DNA of 64,000 nucleotides from Eutreptiella sp. 'Long Island Sound 2002' (Eukaryota > Euglenozoa > Euglenophyceae > Eutreptiales > Eutreptiaceae), in the NCBI GenBank assembly GCA_964036045.1, contig OZ038386.1, forward strand, positions 19,554,225 to 19,618,224. The letters are read 5' to 3'. The translations under genes were made by a program, and so were the position numbers. Positions within the stretch are counted from its first letter, which is position 1. The number at the start of each line of letters is the position of its first letter. Shown in pieces: positions 17,156-64,000 of this stretch. Under the pieces are notes generated by a model. It was given only the letters and a program-made list of their open reading frames with translations, was not told the DNA's origin and ran no database searches.

Positions 17156-17191
<36 letters not shown>

Positions 17192-23490: not shown

Positions 23491-25755
23491 CTGCGTCCCG
23501 ACCAGGCACAGAACTGCGGCTTGAGCGCCGGGGCTGCGGCCGCAGCGAGACTACTATGTCCAGCGGGTTGACCGCGGGGCCTGAGCCGGAGCGGCGGAGA
23601 GGGTTCACGGCGGGCGGTGGTGGCGGCACCGCTGCGCCTTCCGGGTGCGGGACGGGCTGGGGCGGCCGGGCCCCCGGCAGCTTTGCGATGCGGTGCGCGG
23701 CCCGCACGGTGTTCGCGGCGCGTCGCATGCGCTGCGGCACGCGCGTCTCCAAGGGGTCCGGAAGGGACAGCGTCTCGGAGAGGGCGGTGGACAGCTGAAC
23801 CTCGCCGATGTCGAGGGGGTCGTCTGTGCGGAGGGCGAGAGAGCGACAGCAGAGCACGTGCATCCCAGTGCCAGGAGCTTGCGCAGAAGGGGAAGAGGAA
23901 GAAGGGGGGCACAGTGTCACATTGCAGCGCAAGGGAAGGGCATATACCGCCCCACCCCCGAGGGATGTTTTAGAAGAGAGGGGGGGGGGGGGGGGGCAAA
24001 GGTTTGTGTACCAAAAATAGCCCGACAATATTTTCCCAATGGTAAATTTAGTCTTTTCCCACTATGGCCGCTCTGGTCTGGAGGAAAGGGGGGTCCAGGG
24101 GGGGTACTCCCGCCTCCTCCTACGGTGTACGGCCATTCTGGTACTTCCCTACGCGGGGAGGAGGAGTGGCCTCAACCCCGCAGGTGACCGGAGTGTCTCG
24201 GCAGTGAGTGTGTAACCGACGGTGGTGGCAGGGGACTGGGGCGGCCTTTTACTAGCAGCCCAACAAACCAGACCAACAACATTGGAAATAAATAAAATGA
24301 CAGCGGCGCTCTGCCCGGCTTTGGCGCTATTATGGCCGTTGGTGTTGGGCAGGGCGGTCATTAACGCAACAATGAGAAAACCAACTGCCGGCCTCCGGTA
24401 TCCTCGGACCTCAGCACAGGGCCAGCCGACCAGTAACTGCTGGCGGCCGTCGGCCCACCGGCGTCGTTTTTTTTTTCTGTTACGAGTAACTGCCGTCGGT
24501 TACGCAGCAACCGCCGTCGGTTCACCGAATCCTGCCACCCCAGGCGGTCCTCAGCAGGAAAGAAACGAAGAAAAGTATTTCGTTCCCAAACGCCAGGCAG
24601 CATCGTTTGCGGTATACATTCCAAAACAAGATTGTTGGTCCTCAATCTCTGAAGCCGGGGGCCGAGTCTCACGCGCCTGTCGCGGCCTTCGTCTGCCTCT
24701 TGTCCCCGCAACCCGGACCCGGAACCCGAGACCAGCCGCGTGTCGCACTGGGTTTGTGTGGGGTCGATCAGACAAAGCCAGACAACCCCCGAGTGCCGTC
24801 ACTGCCCTGCGAATGCCGCTCCTGGCGCTCTATGTCCGACTCACCCAACACAAATGCTGAGAAGGGAGGGACGGGTGGGTGGGGTACGGTTGGAAGGCGG
24901 TGGATGGGGCGGGGTGTTCCATAAGGCCAGTTGGCCCCGCGTCGCACGGCCAGTGCCGTGTCTTCGGTGTCCGCTGCTTGTTTCTTGCTGATCGAGGCCG
25001 TGTGGGGGCGGGAGCAGGCCTGTCCGTAATGCCCAAAACAACAAAACCGCCGACCTCCGGTACACTCGGGTCCAACTGTGCTATCGGCTGTCGGTTACCG
25101 GCCAACCGGCGTCGGTTGAGCTCCAACTGCCGTCGGTAACCGCAATCCTGCCACCCAAGACCACAGGCTGTAGTTTGCTAACCAAAAAAAGGGGGCATCT
25201 CAGTCCGAAAGGGACGCCGGGGGGGGGGGGGGTTGGATGCAGGATGCGATGGGGAGTGCACTTTTGTGGATGAAACAAGAATTTTGGCCCCATTCGTCGT
25301 GGTTGCCGCCCTTTGCCCCCCTGGCGTCCACTCCCCCGCCAGCGCTGACAGGCACACTCAGTCGACTGTGAAGTCTGGAGGGTGCTCTCCACCGCATTGG
25401 ATTTGGGAGTCGCACCATAGGGCCCAGGGGGTCCACCAGGGGAGGCACATCAGGAATGTGTTAGAAGAGGGGGGGGGGGGGGGTGGCAAAAGTGTGTGCA
25501 CCAAAAATGGCCCGACCAGATTTCCCAATGGCACATTTCGTTTTTTCCCACGATGGTCACTTTGGTCTCCACATCGGGGGGGGGGGGGTCAGCCCCCCTG
25601 TGTGACATTCCGTCCGGTCGCTGTTTCTTTACGGGGCCCTGGACGGTCACCCGTTCTTCCCTTCGCATGTTGCGCCGGGTCGCTGCTTTCTGTCGGCCGC
25701 TGCGGGGTCAGCCCCCCCTCCTTCTGCGGTGTACGGCCATCCTAATACTTCCCTC
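23393..25755. repeat. three copies of an intron-start repeat block
   Basis: Minus-strand motif AGGGAAGTATTAGGATGGCC followed by GTACACCGCAGAAGGAGG lies at about 25700-25755, 60 bases after the exon A donor. Variants occur at about 24105-24155 and, 50 bases after the exon B donor, at about 23410-23455. Poly-G plus CACCAAAAAT units accompany the first two (25469-25510 and 23980-24020). The arrangement suggests exon and flanking intron were duplicated together. Confidence 0.65.
23491..23823 (-). CDS. tail exon B of the giant gene
   Basis: The acceptor CTCTCTCGCCCTCCGCACAG|ACGACC is at 23824/23823. The donor GACGCAG|GTGTGC is at 23491/23490. Length is 333 bases (111 codons) with phase 1 at both ends. 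The encoded unit reads DDPLDIGEVQLSTALSETL, LSLPDP, QRMRRAANT, a Pro-rich middle, two NPL motifs (VNPLRRSG, VNPLDIVV) and PGRDAG. In that order it parallels the end of the giant exon: DVQLSAALSQTLSLPEPW, QRMRRAMNA, NPLSGPGG, NPLEIKL, PAADAG. The G ending the giant exon plus AC here makes an Asp codon, so the join is in frame. Confidence 0.8.
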
Positions 25756-25783: not shown

Positions 25784-28700
25784 CTGCATCCGCAGCGGGC
25801 ACAGGCCCCGGTTCCTCGCGAGGTACGTGCCGGATCCGCGACCGCGACGTGAGCTTGATCTCCAGCGGGTTGCCCTCCGGGCCCCCAGGGCCACTGAGCG
25901 GATTCTCGGTGCTGGTCCTCGCCGGACCGGGGTCTACCGCGGCCGCGGCTTCGCGAACTCCGCGGGGCTGCACCGGCGACGCCTGGGTCCGCTGCGTCGC
26001 GGCGTTCATGGCGCGGCGCATGCGCTGCTGCATGGGCGTCTCCTTGGGGCGGGCACCGCGCGCACGGCGCGGCACCCCGACCCCCGGGGGCGGCGCCAGC
26101 GGCGGCGGCGGCGGGAGCGCGGCCGACGGTGAGAGCACGCCCGTCGACCGCGGCAAGTCGCGCGGCTTGCGCGGCTCCGGTATCGGCATGTCGGGGTCCT
26201 CCGGCCGCACCGGCCGCTGCGGCGTGCGGGGCGCGGCCCCGGCGGTGGGCGGCGCCGCGCCCGCGCTGGCCCTCGGGCTCCAGGGCTCGGGCAGGGACAG
26301 GGTCTGGGACAGCGCGGCCGACAGCTGGACGTCGGCGACGATGTCCGTCTCGTCCAGCGGCACCGAGCGCGGCCGCGACGCCGGGCGCGAGCCGGCGATG
26401 GGCGTCCCGTCGCGGCTGTACAGGGGCCGCTGCGCGGACGGCGGCTCGCGCGACTCGCGGCTCGCGGCCCCCGACGACCCGGGGCGCTGCCGCCGGAGCG
26501 CGATCGCACCGGCGTCGGGCCGCTCGAGGGCCGGTGACATGCGGTCCAGGAAGTTGCGGGAGTCGAACATGGTGCTGCGCTGGGGCGGCCCGATATCCGG
26601 ATCGCCGGCCAGGTTCAGGCTGAGGTTGTCCCAGTCGATCGCGCTGTCGCTGCGAGGGAGGCTCGGGGTGTCCGCCGTGGGGCTCGGGAGCCAGCCCGGC
26701 TTGTGCAGCCAGGACTGCTTCTGCTCCAGCGGGTTGACGGGCGGCATGACGGGCGCCGCCGTGCGCTGGAACGGGTTGGGGTGGACCTTCGGGGACCGCG
26801 GCGTGGGCGTGAGCGGCTTCGCGGGCGTCGCGTGCGCGTCGCCCTGCCGCCACGGCCGGTTCGGCGCGCCGCTGGGGGGCGGCGCCTCGGCGGCGGCCGC
26901 CCCGCGGGCCTTCTCCATCTCCACAAACCGGGAGACGCGCTGGCGGCGCGCGCCGCGCCTGGAGCCTTGGGTCACGTACATGCTGGCGGTCTTCCACCGC
27001 GCGTCCGCCCCCTGCGGCACGACAACGGGGGGACGGCCACCGGGGCTGCCCGGCAGACTGCCGGTAGGGGTGCCTCGGACGGGGAAGCGGCCCGGCTTGG
27101 TTGGGGTGCCAGGGAACTGGCCGGGCTTGACTGGGGTGCCAGGGAAGCTGCCCGAGACTTGGCCCGGCTTGACTGGGGTGCCGGGGAAGCTGCCGGGGAA
27201 GCCGCCAAGGCTGGCCAGGGGATCCGGTTTCGCCGGACTGAAGGGGCGGTTGAAGAGGAGGTCAGGGTCCTCCCAGAGGTCTGGGAACTCGAGATCGAAG
27301 TCGCCCTCGTCGCTCTCGATCAGCTTCTTCGGCTTCTCGACCGGATCAAACACGAAGGGGGTCCCTATGGGCTGAGGAAGCTCCGGGAAGAGCAGCTCCG
27401 GGTCGAGCTCCTTGGGCTCGGGCTCCTTGTTGAGGGACTCCAGCGGGTTCATCGTCGGGACCATGACGCCGCCCATGGGGTCCATCCAGACAATGTCGGC
27501 CTGCTCCCGCTCCCGGCGCTTGGCCCGGAGCCGCCGGACGTAGCACGCGAAGCATACGAAGAGGCAGCAGCAGACAAGCCCCGCAAGGATCGGGATGCTG
27601 AAGGCCGGGTTTGACGCCATGAACTGCGCTGCGCCTGCCAGGAAGCCGCCGTCGGCAGCAACAACCGGGGACGGCGACGGCGAGGGCACGGTGGGGCTGG
27701 GCGCGGGGCTGGGCGAGGGGCCCTCGGTCACGTTGAAGAGGGCCACCCGCACCCACTTCAGCGGGTTGTTCCACCGCGCGAAGTTGTAGCACAGGGCCCA
27801 CTGGCCCGGCATGAGCGCGCGCGACACGTTGCGCTCAAAGACGGTGAAGTTGGAGAAGCGCTCTGCGGAGGGCATGCGGGGTGCGACTGGGGCGTTGATC
27901 TCGACGTTCGCGGGGCAGTCCCCGGGGCTGAGCTGGAACTCATCGTCAGGCGACAGCATGAACCCGGTCACCCGCAGCGTGAACTTCTCCCCGGTCACGG
28001 GTACGTACGGCTGCCCGGTCGCGATGTCGAGCACCTCCGCGGCCAGCGGCCCGGTGATGATGATGGGCTGCGGCAGCGCCTGGAGCTCGCCGCCCTGGGT
28101 GTAGCAGAAGGTGTAGGCGCCCTCGACGGGAGGGGCGAGCACTGGCAGATCCCTCACACTACAGGGGGACGTGGCGGCCGCGCCAAAGGGGACGGGGATG
28201 GCCGTGCCGGCGGCGAGCGCGGCCGCACAGAGCCCCTTCGAGGGCTGGAATCGGCCGTTAAGGTTGGGGTTGCGGAACGTGCCGAACGGCTCCAGCCGCG
28301 CCGGGCCGGTGTCGGGGCACGCCTGCGGCTCTGGGGCGCCGGTGGGCGTCGGGGTGGGCGTCGGGGTGGGCGTCGGGGTGGGCGCGGGCGTGACCGCGAC
28401 CACCTGCGGGCTGCCGGTGGCCGTGGGGGTGTGCGTGGCCGTCCGGGTCTGGGACGGCCCCTCACGGCGCTGCGGGGCAATGCCGCGGCGCTGTGGCGCG
28501 GTGCCGCCGGTGGTGCCGACGGTGCCGGGCGCATTGCCGCCGGGGATGAGCGCCATGAAGTACGTGTCCGAGGAGGTGAGGAGGAAGGAGGAGTACACGG
28601 CCCCGAACGTCATCAGGAACTGCTCCGCCGCGATGGGCAGCGCAGGGTCCGTGGTGTAGGCGAACACCTCGTTGAGGGTGGCGGTGGCTGTCGCCTGCGG

Positions 28701-31700
28701 GGACGCCGTGTCGCCTGCCGTCACTGTGTCCGTGAACGTGGCGGTCAAGTCGGCGGGAAGGGTGCGCGACGGTACCTCCGTCACGGTCGCTGTCGGGGGC
28801 CGTGTGGCGGTCCGGGGCAGCTCAAGCGATGCGGATTGCGTGATGCGGTCCTCCAAACTGTCCGTGAGGGTGAAGTTGAGCGTGGGGGCCGGGGTCGGTG
28901 TGGAGGTGATGGCAGCGGTGCGGGTGAACGGCAGCAGCGACAGGGTGTCGGCGGCGGTGACGCTCTGCGTGAGGCTGGCAGCGGCGGATACAGACCGGGT
29001 GGGGGTGGGGCTCTGGTACAGAAGCGCGGTGCGGGTCGAGGTCAGGAGCACGTCCGGTGAGGCGGTGATGTTGGCGGTCGTGGAGGTGGTGACGCTGGCG
29101 GTGAGCGACTCGATGGCCGTGCGGGTGGCGGTGCCCGGGCGGCTGCGGCTGGGGGTGTCCGTCCGGTTGGGGGTGCCAGTGCCGGTGACTTCTCCGGTGA
29201 GGGTTGGCAGGTGAGGGGTCTCGGGCGCGGTGGGGGTGCTGGTGCGCACGGCCGTCACCGTGCGGCTGCACGACGCGGTGCGGGCGGCGGTGGGCGTGGC
29301 CGTGCGGGCGGCGGTACCAGTGACGGTGAAGGCGGCGGTGGGGGTCCCGGTGACGGGGGCCGTCTCGGTCGCGCGCGCGGTCATGCCGTTGGTGGCGGTC
29401 GCGGTGGCGGTGCAGGTGCAGGGGGCGGTCGCGGAGGGGCTGATGCGCGAAGACGGGGAGAGGGTGTGGGAGGCGGAGACGGTGGCGGTGCGGGTGGGCC
29501 GCACGGTGCCCGACGGGGGGCTCGCGGTCGTGGTGAAAGTTGGGGTGGAGGTGCGGCGTCGGCTCGCGGTGGTGGTGGGGGTCGCGTCGGCGGTGAGGGA
29601 CAGCGAGCGGATGCCGGTCCGGGAGTCGGTTGGGCGGCAGGTGTCGGAGGGGCTGGGGCTGCCGGTGCGGCTGTGGGTGCGGGTGGGCGCGTGCGTGGCG
29701 GTCGCGGTTGGGGTCGCCGTTGCAGGCCCCGTGACGGAGCCCGTGCGGGAGGGGGAGGGGCTGCGGGGCGCCGTGCGGGAGGCGCTGAGCCGCGGGGACG
29801 ATGACGCAGTGGCCGTTGCGGTCGCGCTCGGGCCGGGGGTCAGGGTAGATCCCCGGCTGCGGCTGTGGGTCGCTGAGGGCGTGAAGGCCCGGCTGCGGGT
29901 TGTGGTCAACGAGGGGCTGCGCACCGGCGTCGGAGTCGGCGTCCGGGTGGGCGAGGCCGAGAGTGGCTCCGAGAAGCGCAGACTCCGCGTCGGGGACTGG
30001 GTGCAAGTGACGGAGACGGTGGCCGTGGGCCGCCGCGTCGTGGATGGCGTGGCAGAGGAGGAGCTGCTGGTGGAGAAGGTCGCGGTGGCGCGGGGGGTGT
30101 CGGTCGGGGAGGGGCTGCCCGGGCTGTTGGTCATTGACAGCGACGAGGCGGTGCAGGACTGGGACAGCGGACTCGGCGAGCGGGACTGGGTCGACGGTGA
30201 CGGGCTCAGGGACGCGGGGGAGGGGCTCGCGGAGGGGGTAAGGGAGGGCGTGGCGCTGGTGGTGACGGCGGCGGTTGCGACGGCCGAACAAGAGGGCGTG
30301 CAGGAGGGGGACGCGGTGCGCTCGGCGCTGGCGGTGGACGACGCGGATGGCGCGGTCGCGGAGGCCGTGCACGTGGTTGTGGGCCGCGCGGTCGGAGTGC
30401 CGGAGGGTGGGGAGGCGGTGCAGGAGGCGGACACGGTGGTGCCGGTCGGGGAGAAGGAGCGCGAGGGTGACGCGGAGGCGGAGCGACTACTTGGTGTGGG
30501 ACTGAGGGAGCCGAGGGATGGAGTCCCGGTGCCGGAAGCTGTTGTGCTGCCGCTGCGGGAGGCGGACGTGCACGTGCGAGTCGCGGTCGGGGTCGCGGAG
30601 GAGGCAGTCGGTGTGGCAGAGGGCGAGTTTCGACTCGCGGTCCCGGTACTGAGGGTGGGGCTCTGCGTCACAGGCCGTGTCTGGACTGCGGAGAGGGTGG
30701 GGGAGTGGGAGGTGGAGAAAGTGCGGGTGACGGTGCGGGCCTGGGTGTTGCTGATGGTGCCGGAGGCAGAGGCGCTGCCGCTCGGGGTTGCAGTGGCAGT
30801 TGGAGAGTCCGAGCGGGAGCGGGACCGGGACAGTGTGGGCGTCAGGCTGCGCATGCGCGACTCCGTCGGGGTAGACGTCGCGGTGGGGGTAAGGGTCGGC
30901 GGAGACAGCGTGGCTGTGAGGGAGCGGGAGGGCGAAGGCGATGCGGCGGCGGAGCGGGTGGGGGTCCGCGTTGCGTTGTAAGTCGGCGAAGGGGACGCGG
31001 AGGGCGACCACGACGGGGTGGCGGTGCGGCTGGGCGACCCGGGGCTCCGGGTCACGGCCAGGGTGAGCGTGACCATGCGGGACTTGGTGGGGGTGAACGT
31101 GGCGGTTCGGAGGCCGGTGGGCGACGCGGAGTCGGTGGAGGTGCGCGTGGTGGAGTGGGTACTGCAGCTCTGCGTCAGCGCGATGGTCAGCGTGGGTGAC
31201 ACTGAGACGGCGGACGGCGTCAGGGAGAGAGTGGACGGACTTGGGGTGGGCATGGCTGAGGCTGTGGGGGATAGGGACCCTGGACTGGGAGTGGCTGTGG
31301 AGGTGGGGGTGCAGGTGGTGGTTGGGGTTGCGGTTGGGGAGGCAACGGACGGGGTGACGGAGTCTGACACGGTTGCGCTGAAGGTGAGTGTGAGTGTGTG
31401 GGAGCGCAGCAGAGTTTCGGTCGGTGTGATCGACCAAGAGCCCGTGCCGGAAGCGGAAGCGGGGCTGGCGGTGCCGGTGTGAGTGGATGTAGGGGGCAGG
31501 GTCCGGGTGAGGGAGATCGAGGGTGAAGTTGTGGTGGTGAAGGTGCTGGTTGAGGACATGGTGGCGGACACTGTGGGGTTCGGGGTGCAGCTGCGAGAGG
31601 CGGTGGGGGTGGGGGACGCAACATCGGAAACCGAGGCGCTGTGGGAGACGGATCCGGGAGAGGGCGTTGGGCTGGGGAACAGCGCCAGAGAGGGGGTGAG

Positions 31701-34700
31701 GGACGCCGAGCAGGTGCCGGATGCGGTGGAGCTGCTGCTGCAGGCCTGCGACAGCGTTGCGGAGAGGGAGAAGGTGGCGGTCTGCGTGGGAGAGAGCGTG
31801 CGGAGGCCTGTGCCGGACAGGGTGGGTGTCGGGCTCCGGAATCGGGTGAGGGTTGGAGAGGGAGGCGATGCGGAGACAGTAGAGACGGTGCGGCTGCAAG
31901 AGGGGCTGGGGGTCGCGGTAACGGACCGCCTCGAGGGCGTAGCGATGCCAGTTTGGGTCAGGGTGGGGGTTTCGGAGCGGGGCGAGGGCGACTGTGTGTG
32001 GCTGCCAGACACCGACGGGGATGCGGTCCCGGAGCTGGACTGCGTGGAGGTGGGCGCGAAGGTGAGTGTCCGCGACGCAGAGGGGGACGGAGAGCGGGAC
32101 CGCAGCGAGGCGGAGCGCGTGCTCGTGGCAGACGGAGACGGGGTCGCGGTGGTATTGATGGAGGGGGTGCCGGTGTGCGAGGCCGTGGTGCGGGATAGAC
32201 TGAGGGTGCGCGAGGCGCTCAGGGAGGCGGTGCTGTTGGCGGAGGGGGTGGGTGTGCTGGTGCGGGACCATGTGGGGCCTGTGTGAGTGCGTGAGGGGGT
32301 GCCGGTGCCGCTTGGGGTGAAGGTGCCGGTCGCGGTGGGGGTGAAGCTGGGCGGCGACGGGACAGGGGTCCAGCTGCCCGTGCCTGATCCCGAATACGTG
32401 CCTGAGACCGAGCGAGACCGAGGAGAGGGGGTGAGGCTGGCGCTGCGGGTGGCGGTGAACGAGGGCGTGGAGGACGGCGGTGACGGAGTGACCGTGCGGG
32501 ACAGAGTGGCCGTGCGGGTGCGGGTGGCGCTGGCCGTCCGAAGTGGAGTGTGGCTGAAGGTCGAGGAGACGGTGGGCAGATGAGACCGCGTTTCGGTGGT
32601 GGTTAGCGAGTGGGACGCGGGCGCGGTCCGAGACACGCTTCCGGTTTTCGAGTGCGTGTGTGACCCCGTGGGGCTGGGCGTGCTGGTCTGGACCGCGGGA
32701 CGAGACGGGGTGCGCGTGTGCGTGCAGGACTCCGTTGGCGAGGCGCTGCACGTTGAGCTGAGGGACGACGTCCAGGAGCGCGTGAGAGGGGGGCTGCCGG
32801 ACGGAGTGCGGCTGGGGCTGTGCGTGTGGCTCAGGGTTGGGGATGGGGTGGAGGTGGTGGAGGCGGAGGCGGAGATGCTGTGCGACGCGCTTTGCGATGC
32901 GCTGCCGGTGGCGCTGCCGCTGGGGCTGAGGCTGGGGCTGCGGGAGAGTGTCGGGGATGTGGTGTGGCTGGTGGTCTGCGTCACAGAGGCTGTGCCGCTT
33001 CTCGTGCGGCTGGCACTGCGGGAGCGGCTCAGGGACGCGGATGCGGAACCGGTGAGAGAGAGGGTGGGGGAACGGGTGGAGGAGGTGCTGGGGGACAGCG
33101 AGGCGGGGGTGGGGGAGCTGCGGGTGTTCGAGGCAGTGGCGGAGGGGGAGAGGGAGCGGGACGCCGATGGGGACGGGGTGTGGCTCGAGGTGGCCGTCGT
33201 CCGCGTGACGGTGATGGAGGGCGTGGCGGAGGGGGTGGCCGTTGTGGTCACGCTGCCCGTCAGGGACGGGGAGGGGCTGGTGGTGGCGGTGCCGCTGACG
33301 GTGGGCGACCCGGTCCAGCGCCGGGAGCGCGTCCCGGTGTCGGTGGTTTGAAGCGTGACGGAGACGGTCCGCGAGGCTGAGGTGGTGTAGGTGGTCGTGG
33401 GGCGGGTGGATGGTGTGAGGGACATGGTGGGCGAGACGGTGGCGGAGGCGGAGGGTGAGACGGAGGCGGAGGGTGTGGGGGAGCGGGTGCCGGGGGACGC
33501 GGTGCACGTCGTCACTGTCATGGACCAGGTCCGCGAGCCCACCGACGGGGTCTCCGACGGGGAGGCAGGGGAGAGGGTGGCCGTGGGGGTCTGTGAGCGC
33601 GTCGCGCTGGCGGTGGAGTGCGACGGCGACACCCCGGTCGGGGTCGGGGTGCGGGTGAGGGTTCCGCTGGGGCTCGTGTCGGCGCTGGGGCTGGGGCTGC
33701 ACGAGGCAGAGCGGGTGCGGCTGGCGCCCAGGGTCGTGGTGGGGGTGAGGGTCCGGGTGGAGCGGGTCAGGCTCTGCGTCAGGGACCCGGACGGGGGTGA
33801 GGGGCTGGGGAACGCGCTGTGGCTGGAGCTGCGGGAGGGGCTGGGGCTTAGGGAGCGCGGCCGGGACGGCGTCGGGGAGTGGGAGTGACGGGACACGGAG
33901 AGGGAGGTGGTGCGGGTGACGCTGGTGGACGGCGATGGGGACGCGGAGGCGGTGGGCGTCGGTGAGGGGCTGGCGGTGGTGGTGGGCGTGAGGGACGGTG
34001 ACGGCGGCGACGGGGTGGCAGACGGCCGCGACGCGGTGGCGGATTGCGTGGAGGAGACTGTCGCGGTGGGGCGGGGACTGGGGGTCGGGCTGAGGGTGAG
34101 GGCGCTGGTGGCGGACGACGAGGGTGTCACACTGTCGCTGGCGGTGCGCGACCGCGAGGCGCTGGCGGTCGGGGGCGACCGCGAGCAGGTCGTGGTGGGC
34201 TGGGCGGTCAGGGTCGGGGATGCGGACCGGGACCCGCTGCGGGACGGGGACAGGGATGCAGTCGGGGACACGGAGGCGCCAGCGCTGGGCGAGCGGGACC
34301 CGGAGAGGGTGGGGCTGCGGGATGCCGAGCGCGAGATGGAGGTTGTCGCGGTCGAGGAGCGGGAGAGGGAGGGGGATCCGGTGGCGGACGGGCTGGAGCT
34401 GCGCGTGGCTGTCGTGGAGCGGGAGCCAGTCCAGGCCCAAGAGTGGGAGACGGTGGCGGAGCCGGAGGCGGTGGAGGAGGGGCTGCGGGTGAGGCTGGGA
34501 GTGTCGGAGGCGGTGGCAGAGCAGGAGAGGGTGTGGGAGGCAGTGAGGCTGGGCGTCGCGGACCCCAGGGTCTCGGATCGGGACGTGAGGGACCGGGTGG
34601 CGCTGGGGGTCAGGGTCGGCGTGGCCAGAGGGGACCGGCTGGACGAGGCGCTGGGGGACGGCGACCGCGTGGCAGAGGACCGGGAAGCGGACGCCGACGC

Positions 34701-37700
34701 GCTCTCGGTGGCGGAGGGGGAGCGCGCCTGCGTTAGCGTGGGGCTCGTGGATGGCGACGGGGAGGACGTCAAGGACACGGACCGGGAGCGGGGGGACCGG
34801 GTGAGGGAGGGGGTGGCGGAGGGCGAGGGGGACGGGGTCCGCGTGGCATTCTGCGACCCGGAGACCGAGCGCGACGCGGACGGTGTGCACGACCCCGTGA
34901 AGGTCTGCGTCGGCACTGCCGTGGCGGTGGGCGACGGCGAGGGCGAGGGCGACGGCGTCGGGGAGCGGGAGCGGGTGCCGGACGCTGCTGTCGGGGACAC
35001 GGCGTAAGATGTGGTCAGGGAGGGGCTGGAGGTGACGGAGTGGGAGGGGGTTGGGCTCGCGGAGCGCGTCCGCGACGGGGATGGCGTTTGCGATGCGGTT
35101 TGGGTGAGGGTGTGCGTGGGCGGGCTCAGGGACGTGGAGGCAGAGGCGGAGGCCGTGAAGGTGGTCGGTGACGCACTGCGGCTGCCTGACGTGGAGATTG
35201 AGGCGGTTGCGGTGGTGCTGGCGGTCGGGGACAGCGACGCGGGCGAGGGCGACCGCGACGGGGTGTGGCTGAGGGAGGCCGTGGTGCTGCCGGCAGTTGC
35301 GGACGTCAGCGTCGCAGACCAGCTCTGCGACGCCGAGCGCGAGCCCGTGGAGGTCGCTGAGGTCGACTGCGGTGCGGAGCTGGTGGCACTGGCCGTGGCA
35401 GAGCACGTGGGAGACAGCGTCAGGGTCGAGGAGGGGCTCAGTGACGAAGTTGCCGTCCAGCTGCGCGAGGCGCTGCCGGTGCGGCGCCAGGACCCCGTGA
35501 CGGAGCGCGACGGGGACACCACGGCAGACAGCGATGGCGACGGGGTGCCAGAGGGCGTGGGGCTGTGCGTGAGGGTTTGGGAGGGCGAGGGCGAGGGGGA
35601 GGCCGACAACGACCCAGAGGGGCTCGTGCTGCGGGTCGCGGTGCGGGACGGGCTTGGCGACGCGCTGCAAGATGCGGAGGAAGTGGTTGTGGCAGTGGTG
35701 CGGGTGGTGGACCCGGAGCTCGTTGTGGAGGGGGTGGGGCTCTGGGTGGAGGAGGGCGTGGGGGTGCGGGCGCACGACGCCGTCGGAGACCGCGTAGCGC
35801 TTGCGCTGACAGACACTGAGGAGCGGCTGTAGTGCGAGAGGGAGCGGGACAGGCTCTCCATCGCGGTGGCGGAGGCGGTGCGGGTGACCGTCGGGCTGGG
35901 GAGGGTTGGGGAGAGGCGGGCTGTGGAGGTACCGGAGGGCGACGCCGAGGCGGAGCCCGACGCGGTGACGGAGGCTGTGCACGTGGACACGGAGGCCGAG
36001 AGGGAGCAGGAGCAGGAGGAAGAGGCAGTGGGGCCCGTGGCACTGGGAGCTCGAGTGGAGCTCGGTGTCATCGAGGGGCTGAGGGATGCGGTGGACGACA
36101 GCGTGGAGGAGGCGGTGGGGGAGGCGGTGGCGTTGCGTGAGGGCGTGAGCGACGCCGTGCGGGACAGCGAGACGGAGTGGGAGACAGTCGTGGTGGGGGC
36201 ACGGGTGCGGGTGCGGGACGGGGTCGGGGATGGGCTGGCGGAGGCCGAGGCCGTGGCGTACCCAGAGAGGGTGGAGGTGACGGTGGGGGTGGGCGATCCG
36301 ACAGAGCCGGTCAGGGTGGAACCCGTGAGGGAAGCGCTGCAGCTTGACGACACGGTGCGGCTGTCAGACCCCGTCGCGGAGTACGACGGGCTTGGGGAGG
36401 CGCTACGGGAGGCGGAGGGGGAGAGGGTGGCCGAGCGCGGGGAGAGAGTGCCGGAAGCGCTGGGCGACCGGCTGCGGCTGCTGGTCCCGGTGGCGCTGTG
36501 TGAGTGTGAGGGGAGGGTGTGGGACACCGAGACCGAGGCTGAGGAGGACACGGTGCCGGTGTTGCTGCGACTGGGGCTCGTGGAGGGGGAGGGAGAGAGG
36601 GAGAGGGAGCGTGTGGAGGACGAGGTCATGGTAAGCGTGTGCGGCACGCTCTGGGACAGCGAGACGCTGATGGTGACGCTTGGGGTGTAGGTGCGGGTCG
36701 GTAGGACTGTGGAGGTCGGGCTGGGAGACTGGGACTGGGTGGATGAGGCGGAGGCGGTCTGCGTGTGGGAGGGGGTGGACGAGAAGGACGAGGACGAGGA
36801 CGAGGACCGTGTGGAGGATGCCGTGGCCGAGGCGGTTGGGGTGAGGCTGAGGGCGGCGGTGGCTGAGGAGGCAGTGCGAGTTGGGGGCGTGAGGCTGTGG
36901 CTGTGGCTGCTGCTGAGCGTCATGCTGGGGGTAGGGCTGGGCGAGGCAGTGGGGCTGGGGCTCAGGGACATGGTGGACACCGAGGCAGAGGTGGAGAGGG
37001 AGGGAGATCCAGAGGGCGTGGCGGTGATGGTGGAGGATCGGGTGGACCTGGTGCCAGACAACGTGTGGGTAACAGAGGCGGATGCGGTGCCAGTGCTCGA
37101 CGGGTGGGACTCGCTTAGACTGGGGGTGGGGCTAGGGCTGAAGGTTGAGGTCGTGCTGAATGACGGCGACGGTTGAGTGCCGGAGGCGCTCAGTGAGGGC
37201 GTCCGGCTGGGGGTCGGGGTGGAGCTATATGTCTCTGTCGGGGAACGCGAGTGGGAGGAGGTGCGGGAGCCGGAGAACGTGTGGGTCGGGGACTTGGAAA
37301 AGGACGAGGAGGGGGAAGTGGAGGGGGTGTGGGTGCGGCTGGAGGTTGTGGTGCACGTGGGGGCATCAGTGAGGGTGCCTGATGGGCTGCGGGAGACGCT
37401 GAGGGAGATGGACCCCGCCGACAGTGACACTGAGGTCGGGGTGGGGGATGGACTGCTGGTGGGAAAGGTTGGGGTACGGGACGTGCTCGGGGACAGCGAG
37501 GCCGAGGGAAGGGAGGCCGAGGGGGACAGCGACCGTGTGACACTGGGGCTGGGGGAGGGGGGCGTGGGGCTGTGTGAGGCGGTTGAGGTGCGTGTCTGAG
37601 TGGGATAGGGGGAGGGCGAAGGGGACGGCGAACCGCTCCCGGAACGCGTTGCAGTGGCGGATGCGGAGGGGCTGGCGGATGCGGACGCAGTGGCAGAGGC

Positions 37701-55700: not shown

Positions 55701-58700
55701 CGGGGCAGAGGGGGTCGAGGTGGTGCTGGGTGTGTGTGTCAGGGCCGGGGTGGGGGTCCGTGACAGGGTCGGGGTTGGGGAATGTGTGGGGGTCGCTGTT
55801 CGGAGGCGCGAGGGGGTGGCGGACGCTGTGCGGGTCGGTGGCGAAACCGTGGCCGAGGGGCTGGGGCTGCCGCTGCCGCTGAGGGTGGGGGTGGCGGAGG
55901 GTGTGGAACTGGGGACGGCCGTGCCGCTGCGAGTGAGTGAGGGGGTGGAGGTGTGGGAAGGCGAGGCGGTGACGGAGGAGCAGGAGGCAGAGGCCGAGGA
56001 GGAGTGTGACCGGGTCGAGGTGGGCGTGCGGGTGGGGACGATGGTCGCGGTTGGGGTGAGGGACGGGGGCGACAGGGAGACGGAGTGGCTGCCGGACGGC
56101 GAGAAGGTGCGGGTGGCCCGCGGCGTGGGGCTGTTCGTGGCGGTGCCCGAGTGTGTGGCGGTGGGCGTGCTGCGGGTGCCGGTCCAGCCGCTGCGGCTCG
56201 CGGTGCAGGACAGCGAGACGGAGGGGGAGGCCGTGGGGCTGCCAGGGCTGCCGGACAGAGAGCAGGAGGAGGCCGACGCGGAGATGCCCGAGGCCGACGC
56301 AGAGACGGACCAAAAGCCAGAGCCTGACGAAGTGCGGGTGGGGGTGGGGGTGGGGGTGAGGCTCGGGGGACGGCTCGCGGTGGCGGATGAGGTGAGCGAG
56401 GATAGCGTGGCGGTGGCAGTCCCGTGGGAAGGCGTCAAGCTGAGGCTGCAGGTGCGGCTGTGGGTGTCAGATGGGGTCACGGAGGGTGTGCCGGACCGTG
56501 AGGCAGAGGTGCTGGGGGTGGGGCTTAGGGAGGCCGATGAGGGGGAGAGAGAGGGACTCCAGGCGGAGGGCGTCTCGGTGGCACTTTGGGTCAAGGTGGG
56601 GCTGGGCGACCCCGGCGACTCGGTCTTGGTTGGCGGTGGGGCCGTGCGAGACACGGAGGCGCTGGCGGTGAGGGTTGAAAGGGATGGGGACAGAGAACCC
56701 GGCGACGCGGAGAGGGAGCCGGAGGCGGTGGTAGTGACGGTGGAGGACTGCGTACGGGTGCGTGACCCGGTCGCGCTGTGCGACACCGATAGCGAGGGCG
56801 TTTGTGTCGGAGAGGCGGTCCCGGTGCCAGAGGCGGTGGCCGGGGAGGGGGATACCGAGTGACTGAGGGACCCGGTCGCGGAAGTGGTCAACGAGAGCGC
56901 GGCGGACACCGTGTGTGTTTCCGTTGGTTTGGAGCGGGAGGGCGAGGGTGTGGGGGTGAGGGACGGCGAGGCTGAGGGGCTGGGTGGCGAGGGTGTGAGG
57001 GTGACGCGTGGCGTGGCCGAAGGAGAGGTAGAAATGGTGAGGGGATTGGTGCTGGACATCGTGAAAGACAAAGTGAAGGTGGTGCCGGAGAGGGTTGGGC
57101 TGAGGCTGGGGGACTCCGACAGCATCGAAGTGGCCGTTGCGGTTGGGCTTGCAGTGCCAGTGGGTGCGGGAGTCGGGGTGCCGGAGACGCTGGTGGTCAA
57201 GGTGGACCGAGTGGCGGTGGCGGTCGGCGTGGAGGAGGCGGTGGGCGTCAGGCTGGGTGGGGAGAGGGAGAAGGTATGGGTGGGGACGGAGGTCGGCGTG
57301 CGGGAGCCCGAGAAGGACATGGTGGGAGTGGAGCATGTGCCCGTGGGTGTCGAGGTGAAGCTGGAGCCTGTGGCTGAGGAGGAGAGGGTCGGTGATGGTG
57401 GCGACAGGGTACGGGAACGGCTGGAGGAACGGGTGTGGGAGAAGGTCTCCGTGTCTTGCACCGAGAGGGTGCGAGTTCGGGAGCGGCTCTCGGACGGGGA
57501 TCGGCTGGAGCTGCTGCTGAGCGTCCGAGAGGCGGTGAAAGAGAGGGAGGCCAGGGACGGCGAGGCTGAGGCCGTGGAGGCGGAGGCGGAGGCGCTGGAG
57601 GTGGCGCTGCGGCTCACGGTGAGGGACGACTCAGAAAGCGAGCGAGAGGGCGTGGCAGTGCGGGAGGCGGTCGGGGTCGATGCGTCGGAGGCCGTGGGCG
57701 AAACGGTCGAGGTTGGGGTGCAGCTGGACTGCGTGGCAGCGGTGAGGGAGAAGGTGAGGGTGGGGGCTACAGTGGCGGAGAGGGAGGCGGTCCGCGTGCC
57801 GGTGCTGGTGCGGGACGGGCTGTGGGTCCCAGAACGGCTGGGGGAGCGAGTTGGAGGCGACGCAGTTGCGGTACGGGAGCTCGAGGAGGAGGCAGTGTAG
57901 GACGTGAGGGAGGGTGAGCGCCGCGAGGCGCTGGGAGTGCCCGAGGAGCTGGGGGAAGGGCTGAGGGTTGGTGCAGAGGGGCTGTCGGAGGCAGAGAGGG
58001 AGGCGGTGGCTGATGCAGAGAGCGAGGGGTTGCGAGACCGGCTGACGGAGATGGACGGAGATGGAGATGGACGGGAGAGGGTGGCGGTCTGCGAGGCGGG
58101 GGACGGGGAGGAGGTCATCGTGAGGGAGGATGCGGTGGGGCTGGGGGTGTGCTGGCTGGGGGTCACCGAGACGGAGCCAGTGGTGCCGCTGAGAGTCAGC
58201 GTCCTGCAGCTGTACGTCTTGGTCAGCGGCCCGGTGGTGGATGGTGACCTGGTCCCGGAGGAGCTGGTGGTCGCAGTGGCGTGCGGGGTCTGCGTTGCAG
58301 TGAGCGTGCGACTTCGCGTGAGCGTGAACACGCCGGTCTGCGACGTTGCGGTGGGGCTGGGGGTGGCAGGGCTACCGGTCGCAGTGCAGGAGCGGCTCGG
58401 CGTTGGGGAGCGGGAGCGCGGGCTTGGGGTTGCGGTCAGGGACGGGGGGGTCAAGGTCCACCTGAAGCTCAAGCTGTGGGTGAAGCTGGGGCTGCGGGTC
58501 CACGTGGTGGCCGTGGCGGCGGCCGTAGTGAGCGATAGCGTGGGCGTGGGGGTCAGGGACGCGGTGTTGCTGACCGCCAGCGACGCCGTCGCTGTGGCCG
58601 AGACAGTGGGGGAGGTGGTCAGGGAGGCCGTTGGAGGCGTGCCAGAGCCGCTGACTGTGGGAGAGCTGCTCCGGGTGAAGGCGACGGAGGCGGTGCTGGG

Positions 58701-61700
58701 GGTGGCCCCGGTGAAGGAGGGGGACAGGGAGAAGGATGGCGGGTCTGTGCCGCTCGGCGACTGCGAGGGCGTAAACGAGGTGCAGGTCGCGGAAGGCGCG
58801 GACGGCGTGGGCGTGGGCGTTGCGGTCTGCGAGCGCACGCGGCTGACGGTGAAGGTGTCCGTCGCGGTGGAGCCGGGGCTTTGGGTGCCGGTGCGGCTGA
58901 ATGTCCTCGTGGGAAGCGCGGAGACGGTCCGGGAGGCGGTGGGGGTCGGCGTCGGAGTAGAGGTTTCGGAGTGCGTTCCGCTGCCGGACCCGCTGGGCGA
59001 GAACTTGTGGGACCAGGTGAAGGTGGGTGTGTGCACGTGGCTCGACGTGGCAGAGCGCGTGGCGCTGGGCGTGCACGTGCGACTGAAGGAGGCAGTATCG
59101 GAGGCGGAGGCCTGGGCCGAGGTGCTGGGGGAGACCGTGCCAGAGCCTGTCCCGGTCCACGTCGCGGTGAAGGTCGGGACTCGCGTTGCGGTCGGGGAGA
59201 ACGAGAAGGTGGGCGCGGGGGAATCGGAGAGGGTAAGGGTCGGCGACACCGAGTCACTGCCGGACGCAGGGCTGCCGCTGTGGGACACAGTGCCGGACGC
59301 CGATGCGGTCAGGGACGCGCTTGCGCTCGGGTGGGCGGAGTGGGTGGCGGTGACCGTGGCGGTGCGGGTGCGAGAGGGCGAGGCGGATTCGATGCGCGAG
59401 AGCGACGCCGTGGGACTGGGTGTCGGCGTTGGGGAGGCCGAGAGGGTCTGGGCACGGGACCGGGTGCTGGAGCGGGACTCCGAGCCGGAGCCCGACCGGG
59501 TGCGGGTTGTGGTGGTGCTGGGGCTGGGGCTTCCAGTCGCGGTCGCGGTCGGGGTCCCGGCGCGAGTCGCGGTGAGCGAGGGCGACGGCGACGCGCTCCA
59601 TGTGGGACGCGGGGAGGAGGAGGCGCTGAGGGTGGCCTGTCGGCTGCCGGTGGCAGAGGCAGTGCCGGTGGCGGACGGGCTGCAGCTTCGCGAGCCTGAG
59701 GCGGAGGAGCTGGGGAGACGGGTCCGGGTGGGGGTGGCAGTGGCGGACAGAGTGGCGGAGCGTGAAGCGCTGCCCGTGTGCCGGGGGCTGGCGCTCCCAG
59801 AGGCAGAGGGCGACGTGGTGATGGTCGGGGTCAGCGTGGGAAGCGACGGAGTGCGGGTGTCGGGAATGGAACGGGAGGCTGAGAGGGTGCCGGGGCGGGA
59901 GGCCGAGAGGGTGGGTGTCGGCGACGGGGTGCGTGTGTTCGTCAAACTGCCGCTGGGGCTGCCGGACCCTGTTGCAGTGTCAGTGCGCAGCGCGGACGCG
60001 CTGCAGCTCGGAGAAGGCGAGCCTGACAGTGACGTGCTGAGCGTCACGGACCACGTGGCCGAGACCGAGATGGTGTCACTGGGGTGCGAGGCGGACGCTG
60101 AGGGGGTCGGGGTGCGGGACGGTGGGGTGGGGGTTGCGGACGGGCTGGGAGGGGACGCGGTGGTCAGAGTGGGCGAGGCAGAGGGGGATGGGAACCGGGT
60201 GAGCGTCTTGGTGCTGGTGAAGGTGCTGGTGGGGGTTGCGGTGCGCGTGCGGCTTGCGATGTGGGTAGCGGAGTCGGAGGGGGAGTGGGAGGGAGTGGCT
60301 GAACTGAGGGTGGTGCTGAGGGTCGATGTCACACTGGGCGTCTGGGTACGGCTTTGTACCGGAGAGAGCGTGCGTGTGTGTGAGGCGGAGGCGGGGCTCG
60401 CAGTGACGGTGGTCCGTGTGCTGGTGGGGGAGAGGCTGGTGCTGGCGCTGGGGGCGCTGCCACTGGGCGAGAGGGTGCCCGTGCACGAGGCGCTGCGGGG
60501 GCTGCCGGAGCCAGACAGCGACCAGGTCGCGGTGGCGCTGCGCGACGCGGTGCTGCTGACCTGCGGCGTGGGGGAGGGGGTCGGTGTGCTCGAGCAGGAG
60601 CGGCTCCCGGTGCGCGTCGGGCTTGTGGTGACACTCGCGGTGCGGCTGGCCGTGTGCGACACAGCGGCGCTCCGGGAAAGCGTCGGGGTTCGCGACCGGG
60701 AGCCCGTGGCAGTGCCAGAAAAGCTGCGTGAGGGCACGTCGGAGCAGGTGCGGGTGGGCGAGGCACTATGGGACCACGTGAGAGTGAGCGTTGGGGATGG
60801 CGTGGGGGAGGCCGTGGCGGGCGACGGCGTGGCTGTGTGGGAGGCGGTCAGGGTCGAGGCAGTGTGCGTGTCCGTGGCGCGTGTCGGGGTCGGCGTCAGG
60901 GTCTCTGTGGACAGGGAGGGGCTTGGAGACCAGTCGGAGGCGGTGGGGGTGCGGCAGGCGGTGTGTGACGGGGTCTGCGTTGGGGGGCTGGGGCTGCCGG
61001 TGGGTGTGGGGGAGAAAGTCCGGGTGGGGGAGGGCGTGCAGGAGTCAGTGTGGGTGGGGGAAAGCGAGCTGGTGCGGGAGACACTGCGGGTGGGGACGTT
61101 CGTGGAGGTGGGAGTCCGAGTCAAAGATGGCACCTGGGACACAGACGCTGTGTGGGTCGCAGTGGGCAGCGAGGGAGTAGCGGTGGCAGAGGGGGTCGCT
61201 GTGGGGCTCCTGGTTCGTGAGGCCGAGCCGGACACGGTCCTACCGAAGGTTTGGGTCACTGTCGCGGAGGACACGGAGGCGCTGCGGCTGCGGGACTGCG
61301 GCGACGGGGTAATAGAGGGGGAGGGTGACGGGATGGGGGATGGGCTGAGGGTGAGCGTTGGGGGTGAGACGCTCACGGTGGGGCTCGACGTGGCGGTTGG
61401 GGTGGAGCGGGTCCAGGAAGGGGAGGCGGACGGAGAAGTGGACGGCGTCGGTGAGACGGACCCCGTGGATCGGGTGTATGTGTGGGAGCGCATGGATGGG
61501 GTCGCGCTGGCGCTGCGTGAGGGGGTGCTTGTCACAGAGGCGGTCCCACTGGCAGTGGGTGACTGGGACAGTGGCAGGGTCTGTGTTGTGAAGGTGCACG
61601 AGAGCGTTGCGGTGGAGGAGAGGCTGGGACTTTGGGAGACGGTGGGTGTTGCGGATGGTGAGTAGGGCGCAGTGGACGAGGCGGTCAGGGAAGAGGAGGA

Positions 61701-64000
61701 GGTGGTAGTGCGGGTGAGGGCATGGGTCTGAGAGCGCGACAGCGTCTGCGATGCAGTGAGGGAAGGAGTCGCGAAGTCCGACTGGGAAGCGGATGCGGAG
61801 CAGGTGTGGGTGAGCGACGGGGGAGAGCGGGTGAGGCTGCGGCCCTCGGTCGCAGTGGCGGTCGCCGTTACCGACAGGCTACTGCTGACACTGCAGCTTG
61901 CGGAGCTGGACACCGTAAGTTTGCTGGTGGTTGTGGGAGAGCCTGAGGCGCTGAGCGATGGCGTAGGGCTAGGGCTTGGCGAAGGGGATTGGGTCCGGGA
62001 GACGTGGGTGGGGGACACCGTGCGGGTGGAGGGCGAGCAACTGCGGCTGGCAGAGCCCGTGAAGGTGCGGCTGGGGGTGGGGGTGAACGTGGAGGGCGTT
62101 GCAGTGGGGGACCCTGAAGCCGTGGGGCTGAGCGAGGCGGAGACGGTCAGGGCGGCACTGGCGGAGGCGGACAGGGACGCACTGCCGGTCACGGTTGGCG
62201 ACAGGCCCTTGCTGTTGGTCGGCGAGGAGGTGTGGCTGAAAGTGAGGGAGGCGGAAAGGGAGCCGGTGGGTGGGGACCGGGAAGCCGACAGGCTTGAGGT
62301 CTCCGACACTGTAGTCGTCTGGACCCCCGTGGGCGAGACGCTGGGCGACCAAGAGGGCGAGGCGGATGAGCTGGTGGTGGGGGTGCGGGTCGAGGAGGGA
62401 CTGGGGGATCCTGACAGCGTTGCAGAGGCGGTGGCGCTGTCGGCGGCGGTCCAGGAGGCTGAAGGGGATGGGGACGCGGTCGGAGGGCTGTGCGTGAGGG
62501 AGGGGGACGGGCTGGCGCTGAGGCTGGGGGTGGCTGTGGTGGAGTGGCTGGCGGACATGGTGAGGGTGGTGCCCGTAAGAGAGTAGGAGCCGCTGGGGCT
62601 GGTAGAGGGGGATCCCGAGGGGGGGGATCGCGTACAACTAGGGCTCATCGTTGCAGTGCAGGACCCGGTGAAGGTGAGGGAGCCCATGCGGGACGCTGTG
62701 GGACTGCCAGTGTGCGAGACGGACCCGGAAAAGGTGTGGGTGGGGGAGGGGCTGGCGGAGACAGAGGACCTTGTGCCGCTTTGGCTCCCAGAGGCTGTGG
62801 AGGAGCGCGAGTGTGTGAAGGTGGTGCTGTATGCCGTCGAGGCGCTGGTGCTCAGGGTGGCAGACGGAGATGTGCTCCAAGTGTTTGAGGGTGACAGAGA
62901 TGCAGATGCGGAGGGCGACTGGGAAGCAGAGAGGGATGCTGTTGCGCTCACCGGGCGGGACTCAGACGCAGAGCGGGTGGCGCTGGGGCTGAGAGTGGGT
63001 GTCTCAGAGCGCGACAAGGTGCGGAGCAGTGAGACGGTGCGGCTGCGGGTCAATGTGGGCATGTCAGAGTCGGTGACGGTAGCAGTGAGGGTGAGCGCGT
63101 GCGACACGGTTTGGGACCGGGAGGCGGTGAACGTGGAGGCAGTGGGAGTGGCAGTGCTGGACCGGGAGGCCGAGCCAGACAGGGTCGTGCTTGGGGTCTG
63201 CGTCGGCACATGGGACACGGTGACGCTGCGGGAGTGGGAGGCACTGGGTGAGGCGCTCAGGGAGCAGGTGGTAAGGGTGGGGACCGACGGCGTGGGAGTG
63301 AAGGTGGTGGTCAGCGATGCAGAGGCGGTGTGGCTGAAGGTTCGGGTGGCAGTGGGTCCGAAGGAGGGGGTGGCGGTGCGGGAGGCGCTGCGGGAGCGGG
63401 TGTGCGTGGCGGTGAAGCTCTGGGAGCTTGAGTGCGTGGGCGAGGGGCCACTATCGGTGGGGCTCGCGGTGTGGGTGCGGCTGCAGGTGCCTGAGAAGGA
63501 GGCAGATGCGGAGGTGGAGCGGCTTCTGGTGCGTGATCCTTCAAACGTCGGGGTCAGGGTGCCAGAGGCCGTGGCGGTGATGGACGACGCAGTGGGGCTC
63601 AGCGACGGGGAGCCTGACCGTGAGGCGGAGCCGGTCAGACTGGCAGTCAGAGAGCGCGACGGAGACCCGCTCGGGGACTCAGAGGAGGTGTGCGTTGCGC
63701 TCTGCGACGCGGTGAAAGAGAGGCTGCAGGTGGGCGACGCGGACCGGGTAAGCGTGACGGTAGGGCGCGTCTGCGTGCCGGAGTGCGTCACACTGGACCC
63801 GGTGGGCGTGAAGAGCGACTGTGTGGGGGTCTTGGAGCGGGAGACGGACGGGCCGCTCAGAGAGGGGGTGAAGGTGCTGGTGAAAGAGCGCGAGAAAGAC
63901 ACAGACCTCACTTTGGAGTGGGTTGGCGATGCGGTTGGGGTGCCACTGAAGGAGAGCGAGGCTACGCCGGAGGCAGTGGCGGTGTGTGAGAAGGAGGGGG
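25784..64000 (-). CDS. giant Ser/Thr-repeat type I membrane protein, main exon (5' partial)
   Basis: One minus-strand frame is open for 38.2 kb, from the right window edge through 12,738 complete codons, and ends at a splice donor in phase 1. The true start lies beyond the window; the first in-window GTG (63911) is not a credible start. Order of parts, counted from the edge: Ser/Thr stalk to about residue 11,770; a six-Cys ectodomain about 11,890-12,090; a short Ser/Pro linker; a transmembrane helix 12,133-12,153 (FSIPILAGLVCCCLFVCFAC) followed by the stop-transfer cluster RRLRAKRRERE; and a cytoplasmic tail of about 585 residues. The tail has an acidic patch, four KPG/GTP repeats, basic segments, NPF and NPL motifs, and a final unit repeated in exons B and C. 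It is probably a heavily O-glycosylated cell-surface protein. Enzymatic function is not indicated. Confidence 0.85.
27060..27216 (-). repeat. KPG repeats in the cytoplasmic tail
   Basis: GSFPGTPVKPGQ occurs twice, then FPGTPTKPGR, then shortened forms (RGTPTGSLPG). The DNA units of about 30-40 bases are nearly identical, so this is a recent coding minisatellite inside the tail. Confidence 0.8.
27735..28330 (-). other. six-cysteine membrane-proximal ectodomain (part of giant CDS)
   Basis: Six cysteines occur in order: ACPDTGP, GLCAAALA, SPCSVRD, YTFCYTQGG, SPGDCPA and WALCYNFARW. Two share a FCY/LCY motif about 100 residues apart followed by beta-rich stretches (LPQPIIITGP; WVRVALFNVTEG). This looks like two related Ig-like or jelly-roll halves. 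Three N-glycosylation sequons (NFT, NVS, NVT) support an extracellular location. A separate hydrophobic segment, AEQFLMTFGAVYSSFLL, lies just upstream (about 28590-28640). The family is not recognised. Confidence 0.55.
28341..28386 (-). repeat. 12-bp tandem repeat coding (Thr-Pro)n
   Basis: Nearly four identical copies of a 12-base unit (GGGTGGGCGTCG on the plus strand) encode a TPTPTPTPTP run just upstream of the Cys domain. It is likely length-polymorphic and a G-quadruplex former on the plus strand. Confidence 0.85.
28690..64000 (-). repeat. protein-level Ser/Thr alternating repeat stalk
   Basis: About 11,770 residues follow an S-x-S-x-T-x-T pattern, where x is mostly Pro, Ala, Arg, Leu, Val, Gly or His. 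A hand count of one 100-residue stretch (about 63588-63887) gave 51 Ser or Thr. Runs of alternation are separated by connectors such as SPPSLTPTATSTPT and VPTRTY/FPTRTY, suggesting a longer diverged unit. Lys is very rare; Cys and Trp are occasional. Long exact DNA repeats are not evident, so the pattern is kept at protein level. The last roughly 400 residues before the ectodomain are richer in Thr and Ala and less regular. Confidence 0.85.

Follow-up and report, generated by a model that had tools for sequence, protein, structure and literature searches.

A 59-kb coding exon probably encodes most of a giant, mucin-like euglenid membrane protein

The proteophosphoglycans of Leishmania are Ser-rich, heavily modified proteins. 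As far as the available descriptions go, they resemble the product of the locus analysed here in being secreted or surface proteins of a euglenozoan. Giant exons are known from human mucins: according to the available text of a 2026 preprint (PMC13345508), one MUC12 allele encodes 23,080 residues and MUC12 is said to hold the largest human exon, while MUC16 hardly varies in length and has the most degenerate repeat. Giant proteins of a unicellular alga are represented by the PKZILLA gigasynthases of Prymnesium parvum, which the accessible part of their report describes as proteins that short-read transcriptomes fail to recover in full (PMC12300183). By description, these differ from the present case in being modular enzymes with another kind of function.

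The gene described here shares with MUC12 and MUC16 a giant exon and a membrane tether. It differs from their VNTR exons (very variable in length in MUC12), as these are described in the available text, in having a stalk that alternates with a two-residue period and holds no tandem array. MUC16, with its near-constant length and degenerate repeat, is on the same description the nearest parallel to this pattern. The anchor domain is unlike any Pfam family, in contrast to animal mucins. Since the tandem array and a known anchor domain are both absent, the gene does not fit an animal mucin family, and it probably belongs to a family of giant mucin-like euglenid membrane proteins with a non-tandem alternating stalk. 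No prior report of the gene was found in the literature on large exons, giant proteins, and Euglena genomes, surfaces, and flagella, searched mostly outside subscription journals.

The window, the whole stretch of 64,000 nucleotides that was analysed, is part of contig C9 in an assembly of 2,280,300,865 bases and 2,205 contigs. Flanking sequence was added on both sides, 100 kb on the right and 20 kb on the left, and is free of N; coordinates above 64,000 refer to this extension. In the window, one minus-strand frame has zero stops from 63,998 to 25,650 (12,783 codons). With the flanking sequence it continues to 85,253, giving a total of 19,868 codons between 25,650 and 85,253. The exon within this frame, exon 4 of our model, is bounded by a pyrimidine-rich acceptor (GCCGCCCTTTTCCCCCACAG, immediately upstream of 85,047) and a GT donor (GCAG before the junction, GTGTGTGC after it), and comprises 59,264 bp with 19,754 full codons.

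The initial annotation had described a stop-free minus-strand frame running from the right edge of the window to a clear splice donor, in a single exon of at least 38.2 kb and more than 12,700 residues. The donor is placed at 25,784, and the exon was right but understated, its full length being 59.3 kb. The other two minus frames had been called broken, with a longest open stretch of 1,831 codons; openness is indeed specific to the one frame, and the second-longest stretch in any window frame is slightly longer than claimed (1,958 codons, minus strand, 30,490-36,363). The size had also been called exceptional. This stands for a 59.3-kb exon, with the qualification that exons of such an order, built of tandem repeats, have been described; on the available text about MUC12, this is not the only exon to reach tens of kilobases.

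The openness of exon 4 far exceeds chance. A phase-specific first-order model built on the exon's own composition predicts 58.5 stops (SD 7.1, minimum 41 in 100 simulations) and none is observed, while the remaining five frames hold 94 to 856 stops each. At two paralogous loci, C7 and C6, the expected numbers are 23.9 (SD 4.7, minimum 12) and 11.5 stops (SD 3.5, minimum 4), again with none observed. The simulations thus rule out chance or base composition as the cause of openness in the window exon and in both paralogs. We regard it as highly improbable that the frame is untranslated, whether as an accident of composition, a pseudogene, or an assembly artefact. GC-rich, strongly skewed DNA does make stops rarer, and another frame of the exon has just 94 of them in about 19,750 codons; against this stand the missing stops, the ordered signal peptide, transmembrane helix, and splice sites, and the two paralogs, which are open in frame with dN/dS below 1. 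Repeat collapse in the assembly is ruled out, as there are no near-identical internal copies that could have collapsed; the absence of N from the flanks also speaks against an artefact.

The gene model comprises six exons and five introns, all GT-AG with consistent phases, and runs from ATG to stop (Table 1). The modelled protein has 21,727 residues and a mass of 2.16 MDa. The splice sites were picked with the frames in view, so that the model is a consistency check rather than an independent test. Exon 2 opens with near-identical 36-residue tandem repeats, unlike the stalk in exon 4.

Table 1. Predicted exons and protein regions of the gene, in window coordinates and their rightward extension
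Feature	Coordinates	Strand	Remarks
Exon 1	96,110-95,788	-	Starts at ATG; the hydrophobic stretch MLTVICFALLIVCVVGDV resembles a signal peptide
Exon 2	95,363-90,670	-	In phase
Exon 3	88,522-88,303	-	In phase
Exon 4, window part	25784..64000	-	Whole exon 85,047-25,784; 5' part lies right of the window
Mucin-like stalk, window part	28680..64000	-	Ser/Thr at alternate residues; S/T/P content declines below about 31,000
Conserved segment without alternation, preceding the Cys region	28530..28680	-	EVFAYTTDPALPIAAEQFLMTFGAVYSS...; shared with P0001, C7, and C6
Membrane-proximal Cys-rich region	27705..28322	-	Predicted Ig-like beta strands
Single transmembrane helix	27537..27608	-	PAFSIPILAGLVCCCLFVCFACYV, then basic stretch RRLRAKRRER
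Tail from giant exon, presumed cytoplasmic	25784..27536	-	Conserved motif QSWLHKPGWLP; module VQLSAALSQTLSLPEPW
Exon 5	23491..23823	-	Repeats the tail module (EVQLSTALSETLSLPDPL ... NPLDIVV); phase 1-1
Exon 6	22062..22411	-	Third tail module (DVRLSTALSKTLDLPEMW); TGA at 22,062 or donor near 22,099
Possible exon 7	19833..20173	-	Alternative end ...ANPLARQPPTNPLDGLQ followed by a stop; in phase with the exon 6 donor

Retrieval of the upstream sequence, proposed earlier as a check, supplied the start and the signal peptide, and the order claimed at the outset (stalk, Cys domain, transmembrane helix, tail) was confirmed. The product had been put at more than 13,000 residues, a minimum that proved too low against the roughly 21,700 of the model. 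Of the downstream exons that had been proposed, two are supported, since each carries another copy of the tail module and keeps its splice phase; the third is plausible. This possible exon 7 has a second in-phase acceptor at 20,134, and its end matches the one placed near 19.8 kb by the initial annotation. Splicing from exon 6 to exon 7 may add the NPL motif that closes the two earlier tail modules. A perfect 129-bp tandem duplication of two copies lies between the two exons (21539-21796). The introns before exon 5 contain look-alike end segments (25460-25525 and 23980-24040, minus strand; translated, GNLVGPFLVHTLLPPPPPP and GKILSGYFWYTNLCPPPPP), which suggests dispersed intronic repeats.

Only three segments of the 21,727 residues reach a 19-residue mean hydropathy of 1.6 or more: the N-terminus (2.41), the transmembrane helix around residues 20,890-20,920 (2.53), and, barely, one in the Cys region (1.65). 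On hydropathy and the gene model, the predicted topology is therefore that of a mucin-type layout, with a signal peptide, a single transmembrane helix, and a cytoplasmic tail. The small N-terminal domain in the unspliced exon 1 frame weakly resembles CHB_HEX_C_1 (PF13290; 15.6 bits against a cut-off of 22, E 0.016), a lead below the Pfam cut-off; no Pfam family reached its cut-off in exon 1 or the first part of exon 2.

Most of the predicted protein is a stalk of about 20,500 residues, counting from exon 2. The window frame is composed of 26.7% Ser, 20.6% Thr, and 12.8% Pro, and Ser and Thr account for a fraction of 0.498 in the exon 4 stalk, so that the extracellular domain is Ser/Thr/Pro-rich as in transmembrane mucins. 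The Ser/Thr indicator has an autocorrelation of -0.69 at lag 1, +0.62 at lag 2, and 0.075 at lag 40, and the residue between two Ser/Thr is mostly Pro, Ala, Leu, Arg, or Gly. The 205 cysteines dispersed in the stalk (residues about 1750-20600) could cross-link molecules.

No VNTR array of the kind found in mucins was detected in the large exon by internal DNA matches, 10-residue words, or TRF. Internal DNA comparison gave 298 matches at E <= 0.01, of which the best is 69% identical over 185 columns (E 1.75e-9); the best 15 of the 298 have identities of 69-87% over at most 185 columns. Any 10-residue word recurs at most three times in 18,900 stalk residues, and in the window part of the exon TRF found short arrays only, of at most 5.8 copies.

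This composition (Ser plus Thr about 50%, Pro 13%), together with the transmembrane anchor and the tail, is what would be expected of a general surface coat or mucilage glycoprotein, a transmembrane mucin or proteophosphoglycan-like molecule of the pellicle or reservoir whose exact length would be irrelevant. Kinetoplastid relatives produce proteophosphoglycans, on the descriptions available, which also favors such a role. We hold it tentatively, at somewhat less than even odds. Many mucins vary through tandem repeats, according to the accessible text of PMC13345508, and the present stalk is almost without them. In addition, the available text of O'Neill et al. 2017 (PMC5745450) reports no O-glycans by beta-elimination in E. 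gracilis cells and flagella, which counts against a coat of this type, and a 2022 paper repeats their absence in its introduction (PMC10038220). Because of the former result, mucin-type glycosylation is not established for euglenids, as far as that text goes.

Between the stalk and the tail lies the ectodomain. Six Cys of its Cys-rich region are conserved in four sequences, and four of these in all five sequences compared; the five-sequence alignment, cut around this region, has 44 invariant columns including the four Cys. An AlphaFold2 model of the ectodomain, built from three sequences, has a mean pLDDT of 52.9 and contains beta strands within residues 178-309 in addition to the transmembrane helix. 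With this low-confidence model, Foldseek returned zero matches at E <= 0.001. Weak matches at E >= 0.011 include Ig-like folds and the Wzt sugar-binding domain, and at such E values on such a model we set them aside as functional evidence. An Ig-like Cys-rich region is plausible on the predicted strands. In Pfam searches, the last 2,117 residues of the frame gave no match at E <= 0.1 and the ectodomain none at E <= 1; no family reached its cut-off in the exon 5 and 6 frames or in the two relatives described below (P0001 and P0002). Thus SEA, EGF, or other mucin-type anchor domains were not found by Pfam in the C-terminal 2,117 residues or the ectodomain.

A homology search with 956 residues gave no hit at E <= 0.01 among 7,994 candidates scored. 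When the search was scored on the Cys region and transmembrane helix, two relatives emerged among 7,987 candidates scored. The first, P0001 (2,101 residues, from an ENA contig of 2.3 Mb), has E 1.9e-64 and 50% identity in the Cys-transmembrane region, and 43% identity over 362 columns by BLASTP. It has the Cys region and a transmembrane-like stretch; the QSWL..WLP tail motif was not seen. In contrast to the window gene, P0001 as recorded has no long stalk, and its tail is longer, different, and repetitive. The second, P0002, is an 'Ig-like domain-containing protein' of Eutreptiella gymnastica (UniRef A0A7S1J5N..), a photosynthetic euglenophyte, and is the sole relative found with a named source. 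It was found with E 1.6e-19 in that search and is 27% identical to the window gene over 285 columns of the Cys region and transmembrane helix (E 6e-28).

P0002 shares with the window gene the alternating stalk (autocorrelation -0.54 at lag 1 and +0.47 at lag 2), the Cys-rich region, the transmembrane helix, the basic stretch that follows, and the tail motif, where its KQSWLVRPQWLP matches KQSWLHKPGWLP (KQSWLxxPxWLP). It differs in having just 1,497 recorded residues, beginning within the stalk, and the record is probably a partial transcript product. A search starting from P0002 retrieved itself alone among 1,547 candidates. A PDB sequence search gave four weak matches (best E 0.013), which were left unused.

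A DNA search of the genome with a 1,901-base query from the ectodomain region scored 27 candidates and returned 43 matches. Besides the window gene, these comprise two longer matches (C7, 67% over 782 query bases; C6, 66% over 693) and 40 short ones of about 40-140 bases, which are confined to a small P/T-repeat section of the query. The C7 and C6 loci are open across the 3.8 and 3.7 kb first fetched, respectively, and encode stalk, Cys region, transmembrane helix, and tail. Their contiguous openings of 7,932 codons (23,797 bp) and 7,901 codons (23,705 bp) reach the edges of the fetched sequence. The alternating Ser/Thr stalk, Cys region, transmembrane helix, and QSWL..WLP motif occur together in the window gene, C7, C6, and P0002.

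Upstream of each paralog, ten 800-base slices were sampled in 5-kb steps. Seven of the ten are open in the same genomic frame at C7, and likewise at C6, with Ser/Thr fractions of 0.46-0.56. The eighth C7 slice contains the exon start and the other two fall outside, as do the remaining three at C6. The C7 exon begins after TTTTGCAG at VVTMSQPIAG, matching exon 2 in the window gene (VITMNEPIAG) in both position and phase. At C6, two further pieces are open in frame up to 129,634,470, with a different N-terminal region. In all, the sequence read covers 30.1 of 63.7 kb at C7 (about 47% of the span) and 31.3 of 60.7 kb at C6 (52%); introns may lie in the remainder of either span. The N-terminal region of C6 (L070:1-160, plus strand; HIDLTAEAYLYKIYNLTLVVTNGVGNTARTVWLDLDIP) is unlike that of the window gene and gives the impression, no firmer than that, of a cadherin- or Ig-type strand pattern. 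Near this end, the C6 stalk (L069) has local long tandem repeats, unlike the stalks elsewhere.

From the Cys region into the tail (385-400 codons), NG86 dN/dS is 0.56 for window-C7, 0.55 for window-C6, and 0.39 for C7-C6, with dS of 0.85-0.98. Over the stalk, where the alignment is uncertain, the values are 0.57, 0.68, and 0.57 in the same order, with dS of 0.91-1.07. The two paralogs with the same C-terminal anatomy, the euglenid relative, and the membrane-proximal dN/dS below 1 support a real gene family.

Stalk length was counted from a conserved RRLL motif, or for C6 from its own stalk start, up to the first Cys of the ectodomain; the spans include the conserved segment of about 130 residues that precedes the Cys region. 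It amounts to 20,497 residues in the window gene, 20,408 in C7 (taken as uninterrupted), and about 19,435 in C6. The last 7,100 residues of the stalks were aligned globally with both ends fixed, with four controls. Identities are 0.422 for window-C7, 0.426 for window-C6, and 0.448 for C7-C6, compared with 0.392-0.407 in the controls; gap events number 127-170 against 231-238, and alignment scores are 8,156-9,569 against 6,132-6,741. The mean shift is 12.3, 22.8, and 28.1 for the same pairs, overlapping the 24.8-39.0 of the controls, and clearly separates window-C7 alone from them. Within a range of ±400, the best shift falls within ±40 in 8, 12, and 16 of 22 blocks for the three pairs, where about 2.2 would be expected. 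The block shifts and alignment scores suggest that the stalks are homologous and nearly in register, yet close to saturated. Stalk length may be under selection, or indels may simply be rare; the near-equal lengths fit both.

The window and C7 stalks are only 89 residues apart in about 20,500 despite 42% identity, as might be expected if the protein were the backbone of a flagellar hair (mastigoneme), with one or a few molecules per hair, anchored by the helix in the flagellar membrane, and hair length set by the stalk. Chlamydomonas mastigonemes presumably offer a parallel in their Ser/Thr/Pro-rich axial protein. A stalk extended at 0.25-0.35 nm per residue would reach about 5-7 micrometers, a point in favor; the long hairs of Euglena, at about 3 micrometers, are shorter, a point against. 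C6, with a stalk about 5% shorter and a different N-terminal region, also speaks against a hair backbone, and the flagellar placement is hypothetical. In its favor, the available text of O'Neill et al. 2017 mentions an association of xylose-containing material with the flagella of Euglena and refers to the work of Bouck et al. 1978 on mastigonemes. On balance we consider this role rather unlikely.

The near-equal stalks of two of the three paralogs count in turn against a coat, for which length would not matter. Human MUC16, however, is a coat mucin that is also nearly invariant in length with a degenerate repeat, on the available text of PMC13345508, so that constant length alone does not exclude a coat. 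A more specific proposal is that at least three euglenid membrane-anchored proteins with disordered stalks of some 20,000 residues, mostly or wholly in one exon and conserved in length and alternation though hardly in sequence, act as a micrometer-scale ruler for single-molecule surface hairs, such as flagellar ones. We think this unlikely. A length ruler for all three genes is weakened by the shorter C6 stalk and by a shift that is clear for window-C7 only. A surface coat and a flagellar hair may be regarded as the main candidate roles.

The frame is best read as one giant coding exon of a gene for a membrane protein. More specifically, it is probably (at roughly 0.75) the largest part of a gene whose product, a giant type-I membrane protein, forms a mucin-like surface rod in a euglenid. 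The evidence is sequence-based and consists of the open frame, the splice-consistent model, the signal-peptide-like and transmembrane segments, the alternation, the paralogs, and the conserved ectodomain. The weak ectodomain model with its poor fold matches, the negative Pfam scans, the small number of relatives found, and the O-glycan result from E. gracilis count against it. We infer that the gene is expressed and that its product is located at the cell surface. The signal peptide would send the chain into the secretory pathway, where the stalk would remain unfolded and extended; every second residue in it is Ser or Thr, and these would probably be modified. Outside the cell it would project several micrometers from the membrane, anchored by the Cys-rich, probably Ig-like region and the one transmembrane helix. 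The Pro-rich tail with its repeated modules would tie the protein to partners in the submembrane skeleton.

Three genes with similar stalk lengths, one of them with a single coding exon of about 59 kb that holds no tandem array, lend themselves to testing how a cell copes with a chain of about 2 MDa at each step: transcription, splicing, translation, and secretion. If stalk length rather than sequence is selected, the family could serve as an uncomplicated model of protein rulers and of the physics of a two-residue Ser/Thr period. The stalk proteins would also be candidates for the backbone of euglenid surface hairs or coats. Such genes are probably fragmented in short-read transcriptomes, and the class may be widely missed.

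Several other elements lie near the gene. A Ty3/gypsy-type retroelement with a chromodomain occupies 2-7810 of the window on the minus strand and extends to about -5386 outside it. It encodes reverse transcriptase, RNase H, integrase, and aspartyl protease, and its first 2 kb occur in at least 40 places (the window included; 3,595 candidates) at 98-100% identity. No RNA families at the gathering cut-off and no tRNAs were found within the window. Outside it, the segment L015:2256-7868 (window coordinates 126256-131868) is open in five frames on both strands, over 1,602 to 1,871 codons; it has a strong GC skew and resembles a satellite or tandem array. About 8 kb to the right of the gene start, a BMT5-like rRNA methyltransferase domain (L013:468-2564, plus strand; E 1.7e-31) marks a conserved neighbor.
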